Assembly (NCBI GenBank): GCA_027028145.1 | Contig: JALVJV010000021.1 | Location: 62,001-126,000 of the forward strand | DNA from: Archaeoglobaceae archaeon | Lineage (GTDB): Archaea > Halobacteriota > Archaeoglobi > Archaeoglobales > Archaeoglobaceae | Direction: 5' to 3' | Length of the DNA: 64,000 bases | Part shown: positions 23,407 through 44,379 of the stretch, piece after piece | Layout: each line of letters begins with the position of its first letter | Numbering within the stretch: the stretch's first letter is position 1 | Translations under genes and position numbers: made by a program | Notes under the pieces: generated by a model | What the model saw: the letters and a program-made list of their open reading frames with translations, nothing else | The model's database searches: none | Told to the model about the DNA's origin: nothing

Positions 23407-23480
<74 letters not shown>

Positions 23481-41554: not shown

Positions 41555-42547
41555 TTATTTGTCTTCGATGCCCCTTTCGGTAATCTTAAATACCGCCTCG
41601 CCTTCCGGCAAATGCGGTGAGTCGATGAGCCTTGCAACTCTCAGCTCGCCCTTGCTCTTCTTTAGATAGATCCTGAAGGTCGCCGTGTGGGCAACCACAT
41701 GCCCGCCGATCGGTCTCGTCGGATCGCCGTAGAAGGCATCTGGCTTTGCCTGAACCTGATTCGTAACGACTATCGCGGCGTTGAAGATTTCGCCGAATCT
41801 CATGAGATCGTGGAGGTGTCTGTTTAGTTTCTGCTGTCTGTCAGCCAAAGTTCCCCTTCCGACGTATTCGGCTCTGAAGTGCGAAGTCAACGAGTCTACG
41901 ATGAGCAGTCTTACCGGCTTACCATCCTTCATCAACTTCTGAGCCAACTCCTTCGCGTTGTCTACGAGCAACATCTGATGGTTGGAGTTGTAAGCCTGAG
42001 CGACGTATATGTTCTTTAAGACCTCCTTAGGATCGAGTCCCTTCGCTTCAGCCATCTGAACTATCCTTTCGGGTCTGAACGTATTTTCGGTATCGATAAC
42101 GATTACAGAACCCTCAAGTCCTCCCTGCTCCTTCGGAAGTTGAACGTTTACCGCAAGCTGATGACAGATCTGGGTTTTTCCGCTTCCGAACTCTCCGAAG
42201 AGTTCGGTGATGGCTTGAGTTTCAATTCCTCCGCCCAACAATGAATCCAAAGCCTTACTACCGGTAGTAATCCTGCCTATGCTCTGCCTTCTCTCCAATA
42301 ACTTTTCTCCGCTCTCGAATCCACCCATATTGGCTAATTTCCTCGCAGCAGCGATGATCTTAGCGGCAGTAGCTTCACCTATTTCAGCCACCGCACTCAA
42401 CTCCTGAGGAGACGCAACAGCTACGGCTTCGATCGTCGTGAATCCGGCTTCCCTCAGCTTCTCGGCAATAGCCGAACCTACTCCCGGCAAATCCTCAAGA
42501 TCCAGCATCTTTCCATCAACAACCTCTTCAACATCCTTCTTCGCCAT
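41555..42547 (-). CDS. radA: DNA repair and recombination protein RadA
   Basis: 330 residues. The N-terminal helix-hairpin-helix domain ([20 protein letters not shown]) precedes the polymerisation motif and the RecA core with Walker [17 protein letters not shown] (about 117-132) and Walker [18 protein letters not shown]2 contains [20 protein letters not shown]. RadA forms filaments on single-stranded DNA and drives strand exchange. No intein interrupts the Walker A site, as it does in some archaea. It is divergent from the H/ACA RNA gene. Confidence 0.97.
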
Positions 42548-42596
42548 ACGTTCACCTCTCCGTTACGCTTAAATACATTCCAACCGATCATATATT

Positions 42597-42654
42597 GCTC
42601 CGCTGTCCACGCCCGAGTGACAAACATGATCTCGGGTCGGTTGGCGGAGCTACA
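42597..42654 (+). ncRNA. H/ACA box guide RNA (single hairpin with pseudouridylation pocket)
   Basis: The lower stem GCTCCGC (42597-42603) pairs with GCGGAGC (42644-42650). The pocket is TGTCCACG (42604-42611) and TCGGTTG (42637-42643). The upper stem CCCGAG (42612-42617) pairs with CTCGGG (42631-42636). The apical loop TGACAAACATGAT contains the TGA...TGA pair of a K-loop, which L7Ae binds. ACA at 42652-42654 lies one base after the stem and 15 nt from the upper stem, within the 14-16 nt rule. Predicted target: CAACCGA-UN-CGUGGACA, or slightly shorter. TATA CTTAAATA (42568-42575) predicts a transcript starting at 42597. Confidence 0.88.
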
Positions 42655-42930: not shown

Positions 42931-44379
42931 ATGGACGTTGAGCAGGCGAAGAAGATTTTGGAGGAAAACAACGTTAAGCAAGTCCTCTGCGCTTTTCCGG
43001 ATGTCAGAGGATATCTTATGACGTTTTCAATTCCGGCGAGGGAGTTCATCGAGGGCGACGCCTTCGAAGGAATCGGTTTTGACGGGTCTTCCATAAGAGG
43101 TTTCAAGACCATCGAGCAGAGCGACATGGTTTGGAAAGCAGATCCGAGCACTCTGAGAGTGATTCCGTGGATCGACGACCCGATTCAGAAGTCCGCCATA
43201 ATGTTCGGTAACGTTTACGAGGCTGGCGGAGAACAGCTTGCGGAGTGCGATCCGAGAGGATACGTTGCGGAGAGACTTGAGAAGCAACTCAAGGAAGAAG
43301 GAAAGTCAGCGATTTTTGGCCCAGAGATCGAGTTCTTCGTTTTCGAAAGCATCGATCCTACGATGCTCGCATGGGATCTCTGGGTTTCTCCAAACGGTGG
43401 TGCTGGTGATTCGTGGGGTCCGCCGAGGGTCATGCCGGAGAGCCCGGAGATCATGGCCGGTAACAACTTCATAATCAGACCGAAGGAAGGTTACTTCAGA
43501 CCTCCGCCGGAAGATACGACAGTCGAATACAGAAACCTCCTCGTTCACTACTTGGATCTGCTGGGCGTCACGATCGAATACCACCACCACGAAGTTGCTA
43601 CGGCTGGGCAGGTAGAGTTGGACTTCAAGCCGAAGCAGGTCGTTGAAGTCGGAGATGCTTTCTACCTCTACAAGTTCGCCGCCAAGAACGTTGCAAAGAT
43701 GATGGGACTCATAGCGACTTTCATGCCCAAGCCGCTTTACTTGGACAACGCGAGCGGAATGCACACGCATCAGAGCCTCTGGGAGGGCGAGCCTTTCAAG
43801 GGCAAGAACCTCTTTGCCGATCCGGATGATGAATTCGGCTTGAGCCAGACGGCAAGATACTACATCGGCGGTCTGCTTGAGCACGCCAAAGCGTTAACAG
43901 CCCTTTGCTGTCCGACAGTTAACTCGTTCAAGAGACTCGTTCCGGGATTCGAGGCTCCGATTTACATCTGCTGGAGCCCGAGAAACAGATCCGCATTGGT
44001 TAGAGTCCCGGTTTACTTCAAGAAGCCTTCAGCCATCAGAGTCGAATACAGAGGAGCGGATCCGAGCTGCAACCCATACTTAGCAATTCCAGCGATGCTC
44101 GCCGCAGGTTTGGATGGTATCAAGAAGAAGATCGATCCCGGCGACCCGCTGATGAAGGACGTTTACGAGCTATCACCGAAAGAGAAGAAGGAGTTCGGAG
44201 TTGGAGAGTTGCCAACAACGCTTAGAGATGCACTCGAATGCTTGGCGAGCGACGAAGTTCTGCAGAAGGTTCTTGGAAGCCACATCTTCGATGCATTCAT
44301 GAGCATAAAGACCGACGAGTGGAACCAGTATTGCCTATACATCACACCTTGGGAGTTCATGAAGTATTTGGACATCTAA
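42931..44379 (+). CDS. glnA: Glutamine synthetase type I
   Basis: 482 residues. Catalytic landmarks: EGIGFDGSSIRGF near the N-terminus, IFGPEIEFFVFES, EYHHHEVATAGQVELDFK, DNASGMHTHQSLW, KRLVPGFEAPIYICWSPRNR and VEYRGADPSCNPYLA. It joins ammonia to glutamate using ATP and forms dodecamers. The bacterial adenylylation loop tyrosine is not apparent, so feedback or PII-type control is likelier than covalent modification. Monocistronic. Confidence 0.97.
   Translation: MDVEQAKKILEENNVKQVLCAFPDVRGYLMTFSIPAREFIEGDAFEGIGFDGSSIRGFKTIEQSDMVWKADPSTLRVIPWIDDPIQKSAIMFGNVYEAGGEQLAECDPRGYVAERLEKQLKEEGKSAIFGPEIEFFVFESIDPTMLAWDLWVSPNGGAGDSWGPPRVMPESPEIMAGNNFIIRPKEGYFRPPPEDTTVEYRNLLVHYLDLLGVTIEYHHHEVATAGQVELDFKPKQVVEVGDAFYLYKFAAKNVAKMMGLIATFMPKPLYLDNASGMHTHQSLWEGEPFKGKNLFADPDDEFGLSQTARYYIGGLLEHAKALTALCCPTVNSFKRLVPGFEAPIYICWSPRNRSALVRVPVYFKKPSAIRVEYRGADPSCNPYLAIPAMLAAGLDGIKKKIDPGDPLMKDVYELSPKEKKEFGVGELPTTLRDALECLASDEVLQKVLGSHIFDAFMSIKTDEWNQYCLYITPWEFMKYLDI

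Follow-up and report, generated by a model that had tools for sequence, protein, structure and literature searches.

The 64,000-nucleotide stretch of DNA analysed here (hereafter the window), from a member of the Archaeoglobaceae, contains a hairpin that is very probably a single-hairpin box H/ACA guide sRNA with its own TATA promoter, pseudouridylating the equivalent of U2639 in the 23S rRNA of Archaeoglobus fulgidus. The guide gene is genuine and conserved, and its target site is already known. A preliminary description, made from the letters alone, had proposed an H/ACA pseudouridylation guide at positions 42597-42654, and this proposal is borne out by the architecture of the hairpin, by covariation and by conservation. 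The features of the gene and of its neighbours are collected in Table 1.

Table 1. Features of the guide gene and neighbouring genes, in positions of the window
Feature	Position	Strand	Remarks
H/ACA guide RNA hairpin with ACA box	42597..42654	+	fold z -4.4; covariation in 37 distinct copies; covariance-model match of 86 bits
Lower stem, 5' half	42597..42604	+	8 bp including a U-G; GCUCCGC(U); from sequence, alignment and covariation
5' guide GUCCAC	42605..42610	+	expected partner is the target 3' of the modified U, GUG-a-GAC, with one target A bulged
Upper (GA) stem, 5' half	42611..42617	+	GCCCGAG; from alignment and covariation
K-loop UGACAAACAUGAU	42618..42630	+	predicted L7Ae site; two sheared G-A pairs; UGA...UGA invariant in 37/37 rows
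Upper (GA) stem, 3' half	42631..42637	+	CUCGGGU; from alignment and covariation
3' guide CGGUU	42638..42642	+	partner is GACCG directly 5' of the modified U; invariant in 37/37 rows
Lower stem, 3' half	42643..42650	+	(G)GCGGAGC; from alignment and covariation
ACA box	42652..42654	+	ACA in 37/37 rows
TATA-like promoter element CTTAAATA	42568..42575	+	-29 from first stem base; position-enriched in 37 copies
radA (RadA recombinase)	41555..42547	-	divergent neighbour; from the ORF list, name recognised from sequence
glnA-like glutamine synthetase	42931..44379	+	downstream neighbour; from the ORF list, name recognised from sequence

Architecture of the hairpin

The RNA has the two stems and the internal pseudouridylation pocket between them that characterize archaeal box H/ACA guides, and the pocket, read directly from the sequence, comprises 6 nt on its 5' side and 5 nt on its 3' side. 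The ACA box lies 14 nt from the upper stem when the G-U closing pair is counted and 15 nt when it is not, within the 14-15 nt expected of such guides. The K-loop, in the place of the usual K-turn or K-loop, is 10 base layers from the pocket, made up of 7 pairs, a U.U and two G.A. The stems, pocket, K-loop and ACA box of the preliminary description were thus correctly located, and its 15-nt spacing holds for the count without the G-U pair, becoming 14 nt once that pair is included. The 5' flank of the target that it had derived by the H/ACA pairing rule, CAACCG, was one pair too long, as G42643 pairs in the lower stem.

Across the 37 rows of the alignment, the pair that closes the upper stem is G-U in 25, A-U in 9, G-C in 2 and unpaired in 1. 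These counts fix the register of the pocket, giving a 6-nt 5' guide and the 3' guide CGGUU. By the nomenclature in the available part of PMC4652768, the hairpin has a 10/5/9 fold with a 6/5 pocket and is of subfamily 65, a class that the same part of that paper calls productive.

The hairpin has a minimum free energy of -30.3 kcal/mol, and none of 200 shuffled sequences folds as well. A descriptor of the architecture found one match on the plus strand of the 64-kb window and none on the minus strand, and a single match in total across 200 block-shuffled windows; since this descriptor was drafted after the hairpin had been seen, these counts measure rarity and are not a blind test.

Distribution and covariation among relatives

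A DNA search recovered the guide in 29 of 60 genomes (the window's own included), all of the same family, or 29 of the 36 genomes within that family. An exact degenerate pattern run over the genome collection yielded 26 stretches, all with titles naming Archaeoglobi, Archaeoglobales, Archaeoglobaceae, Archaeoglobus, Geoglobus or Ferroglobus. A covariance model trained on 37 distinct copies (55 copies collapsed) detected the RNA in 43 genomes of a phylum-wide sample of 294. These include 42 of the 51 genomes of the window's own family, and the only match beyond it is in a genome (G038) from another family of the same class.

Nine genomes of the family gave no match to the covariance model, and six of these (G007, G018, G027, G034, G258 and G285; 99% completeness is listed for five) are all the sampled members of one genus, g4. 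A more sensitive model rerun on four g4 genomes again detected no guide, and the matches of a pattern search in this genus were seen by eye to have neither stems nor K-loop. The 23S target sequence described below is unchanged in G027, the sole g4 member whose 23S rRNA was read.

Covariation supports both stems. Standard pairing occurs in 98.7% of the alignment cells vs 94.2% in shuffles, and cells changed on both sides number 25 vs 5.4 in shuffles; for either measure, 0 of 500 shuffles is as high. The 25 compensatory cells fall in 5 of 15 pairs and in both stems, and when the partners are slid by 1-3 columns the pairing falls to at most 52.4%. The preliminary description had named two outcomes that would count against it, namely no matching U in stable RNAs and no compensatory changes in relatives; such changes are present, and a target uridine could be placed.

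The guide family is absent from the searched copy of Rfam. No family matches the window's RNA at the gathering threshold and a permissive threshold adds nothing useful, and at the gathering threshold no family matches the RNA in five loci that carry it (an rRNA locus, L001, was searched too). Judged against Rfam, the gene is, as described, unannotated-looking. This missing match is also what a functionless hairpin, whether degraded or arisen by chance, might be expected to give, but compensatory changes, recurrence in 43 of 294 genomes and one descriptor match in 200 shuffled windows leave that explanation with almost no probability, and its chance component is refuted by the conservation. One weak Rfam match, to TeloSII_ncR30, lies beside the hairpin inside radA; it is below threshold and was rejected. 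Elsewhere in the window, a tRNA-Pro(GGG) at 23407-23479 is called by ARAGORN but is absent from the Rfam gathering-threshold list.

Promoter and genomic context

The TATA box that the preliminary description had placed at the right distance is recognizable in relatives: a TATA-like 8-mer (at least 6 of 8 positions) stands at -29 in 21 of the 37 distinct copies, whereas outside -31 to -28 no position exceeds 9 TATA-like 8-mers. Also as described, the gene is divergent from radA, which starts at 42547 on the minus strand. Read on that strand, the guide's TATA-like element is TATTTAAG, 21-28 nt from the radA start codon, and so the element could serve both the guide RNA and radA. The ATG of radA is preceded by the purine-rich GGAGAGGTGA.

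A radA match was found in the flank at 10 of the 29 guide loci of the DNA-search set (some flanks end at contig ends), so that the radA neighbourhood is local and offers no explanation for the hairpin. It is conceivable that the hairpin is instead part of the minus-strand radA transcript, as a leader, attenuator or terminator, and gives rise to no guide RNA: in the window's genus it sits just upstream of radA, and an inverted repeat folds on either strand, the covariance model scoring the minus strand at 16.7 bits. The plus strand, however, scores 86 bits, the invariant K-loop, 3' guide and ACA are strand-specific, and at loci where radA is not the neighbour the hairpin, K-loop, ACA and upstream TATA are nevertheless kept. 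We consider a role in the radA transcript very improbable, and favor a guide RNA transcribed in the opposite direction.

Upstream of the guide gene, the 10-nt CCAACCGATC at 42580-42589 is complementary to the 3' guide region; this complementarity was judged to be due to chance, being kept in G001 and not in G002, G003 or G004. The radA gene of G025, presumed to be Archaeoglobus profundus, is interrupted after the Walker A motif GEFGSGK (L012:1-1478, minus strand) by an intein-like insert with LAGLIDADG-type motifs. At a further locus (L014), the radA match likewise ends at residue 125.

Identification of the probable target uridine

We scored each guide against its own 23S rRNA and, in 13 of 14 genomes, against its own 16S rRNA. 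These 14 genomes are the ones with both a guide from the DNA search and a full 23S locus; left out of the count were 15 of the 29 loci, the window's own included, and G028 too, whose 23S is in pieces. In all 14 genomes, the uridine of GACCG[U]C-GUGAGAC (GACCG[U]CGUGAGAC) ranked first and stood alone at the top score, with 9.5-10.5 of 11 vs 7.5-8.5 for the runner-up among 504-714 rRNA uridines per genome, although the genomes are related and share their guides to a large extent and are hence not 14 independent tests. On their own rRNA, the relatives' guides form the bipartite pairing that leaves U-N unpaired.

As a control, shuffled 11-mers were scored in the rRNA of G035, which we take to be A. 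fulgidus VC-16. Here 38 of 300 reached the 9.5 of CCUCAC+CGGUU and 1 of 300 reached the 10.5 of UCUCAC, so that one guide alone is weak evidence. The target is instead inferred from several 5'-guide variants (CCUCAC, UCUCAC, UCCCAC and, less well, GUCCAC) that can all be accommodated at a single site, against a 3' guide that stays constant.

In the available part of PMC4652768, Af190, Af4.1, Af4.2b and Af46 are given as guides for S1004, S1167, L2601 and L2639, respectively, and are credited to Tang et al. In G035, a single offset of +5 places each of the five L positions of that part (1364, 1970, 2601, 2639 and 2878) on a U, and for S1004 and S1167 an offset of 0 does so. The uridine picked by the relatives' guides is A. 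fulgidus 23S U2639 (L2639), a published pseudouridine (PMC4652768). The accessible portions of PMC2584109 and PMC7991803 hold nothing on the U2639 site. The suggestion of the preliminary description that the site may be new thus lacks support, and the window's own genome (L079) carries the identical 23S target sequence. In G035, the guide motif CTCAC..CGGTY..ACA has a single occurrence, which coincides with the ortholog of the window RNA (A. fulgidus 413565-413622); the reversed pattern, as a control, has 6. On this basis, the window RNA most likely represents the ortholog of the guide for U2639 in A. fulgidus. U2639 lies in the peptidyl-transferase region and would correspond to E. coli U2593. 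The A. fulgidus guides were reportedly first described by Tang et al. in 2002.

If the order of the list in PMC4652768 holds, the ortholog appears to be the RNA named Af46. Compared through the G035 ortholog rather than the published Af46 sequence, the two guides share the target uridine, fold class, K-loop, ACA and 3' guide, but differ in the 5' guide, GUCCAC in the window and CCUCAC in A. fulgidus, and in their surroundings, since radA adjoins the window gene whereas the A. fulgidus locus (L022, L122) has no radA match. Other archaeal H/ACA guides, from Pyrococcus and Haloferax (RF00058, RF00060, RF00064 and RF00065, according to the available part of PMC4652768) have in common with the window RNA the stem-pocket-stem arrangement, the K-turn or K-loop, the ACA and the 14-15 nt spacing; their targets differ, and the window RNA matches no Rfam model.

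The 5' guide of the window's RNA

The preliminary description could not place its target. This remains true of the window's exact letters, which pair cleanly with no single rRNA uridine, even though the relatives' guides single out the same uridine in each of the 14 genomes. Set ungapped on the known 23S site, the window's guide reaches 8.0 of 11, which is second in the 23S of G004, used as a proxy (best 8.5); a score of 8.5 of 11 is also reached by a uridine in 16S. GUCCAC fits GUGAGA poorly without a gap but pairs fully with GUG-GAC if the A after GUG bulges. With the bulged A, the known site is third by duplex energy in the G004 23S (-10.6 vs -11.3 and -11.3). For UCUCAC the same site comes first; for CCUCAC it is third within 23S, with a 16S site better still; and for UCCCAC and UUCCAC it falls outside the top four. 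In this energy scan every guide was run against the window's own 16S and the G004 23S instead of the rRNA of its own genome, and the results are noisy because the duplex is free to start away from the pocket. Taken alone, the window's guide is therefore ambiguous as to its target, which is why the guides of the relatives were used.

The available part of PMC4652768 treats the energy of the 5' duplex (3' arm) as discriminating, with a boundary at about -6.0 kcal/mol by RNAsnoop, and that of the 3' duplex (5' arm) as no discriminating criterion. In the window's RNA, the 5' duplex of 5 pairs has -4.6 kcal/mol by RNAduplex, weaker than this boundary, although the two programs differ in scale.

The GUCCAC arm is also present in a genome of another genus (G016), which lies outside the strongly supported clade of the window's genus in a 16S tree where G016 is partial, with 34% of the columns, and the badly cut G002 row was left out. 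This recurrence, the departure of GUCCAC from CCUCAC and UCUCAC with its poor ungapped pairing to the old target, and the other rRNA uridines that score equally well or better would all fit a real H/ACA guide whose 5' arm was rewritten in a subclade and which now modifies a different or additional uridine. We regard such a shift in targeting as unlikely, given that every one of the 37 rows has CGGUU as its 3' guide, that the target rRNA is unchanged in the window's own genome, that the new arm matches GUG-GAC fully with one bulged target A, and that the duplex formed by this arm is the one whose energy is described as not discriminating. The U2639-equivalent site is most likely the target of the window's guide as well; a changed or second target is possible.

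Further H/ACA-like hairpins in the same genome

In the genome that holds the window, the covariance model also recognized a second H/ACA hairpin (contig C23, 141023-141088, plus strand; locus L121). For the guides of this hairpin, 16S U1022, which is equivalent to A. fulgidus S1004, comes first (10.0 vs 7.0 of 11), and the method thus recovers another published site. The hairpin is a copy of the S1004-type guide, Af190 by list order in the available part of PMC4652768, which has the same single-hairpin K-loop architecture as the window RNA but different guide arms and a target in 16S rRNA.

A third, H/ACA-like hairpin lies on contig C5 (61539-61607, minus strand; locus L120), with relatives in loci L116, L119, L124 and L125; model matches similar to it were found in G002, G003, G015, G025, G009 and G038. 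Its relative in G009 points to the 16S uridine GAGCC[U]GCGGUUU with 10.0 of 11 vs 8.5, whereas the guide of the window's own genome has no clear target in the same register. In presumed A. fulgidus, the model used gave no second match at E <= 1.

Proposed mechanism and implications

The genes for Cbf5 (529.6 bits) and Nop10 (88.3 bits) are present in the window's own genome. We infer that the guide sRNA would be transcribed away from radA under a TATA promoter of its own and, by analogy with its family, would be bound by L7Ae at the K-loop and by Cbf5 and Nop10 at the ACA box and pocket. The pocket may then capture 23S rRNA at GACCG-U-C-GUGAGAC, with CGGUU pairing to GACCG and the 5' guide to the sequence after the U, and Cbf5 would isomerise the captured U to pseudouridine. 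In the window's species, whose 5' guide has become GUCCAC, the full fit would be reached only with one bulged target A (GUG-a-GAC).

We tentatively consider a broader history, which is possible but which we do not regard as probable: the subclade of the window and a second genus would each have rewritten the 5' arm, apparently as independent events, with the 3' arm and the 23S target fixed. The guide would then either accept a bulged nucleotide of the target in the pocket duplex or have acquired an additional target, and in one sister genus the guide would have been lost with the target sequence kept.

Together, these data leave the general picture of RNA-guided modification unaltered, and the find is real and mostly ordinary. 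They add a well-supported guide family, present in about 40 sampled genomes and missing from the Rfam copy searched, and tie this family to a pseudouridine of the peptidyl-transferase region that had already been published. With its 5' arm varying against a constant 23S target, the family also offers a natural series in which to test the amount of pairing required by the H/ACA pocket.
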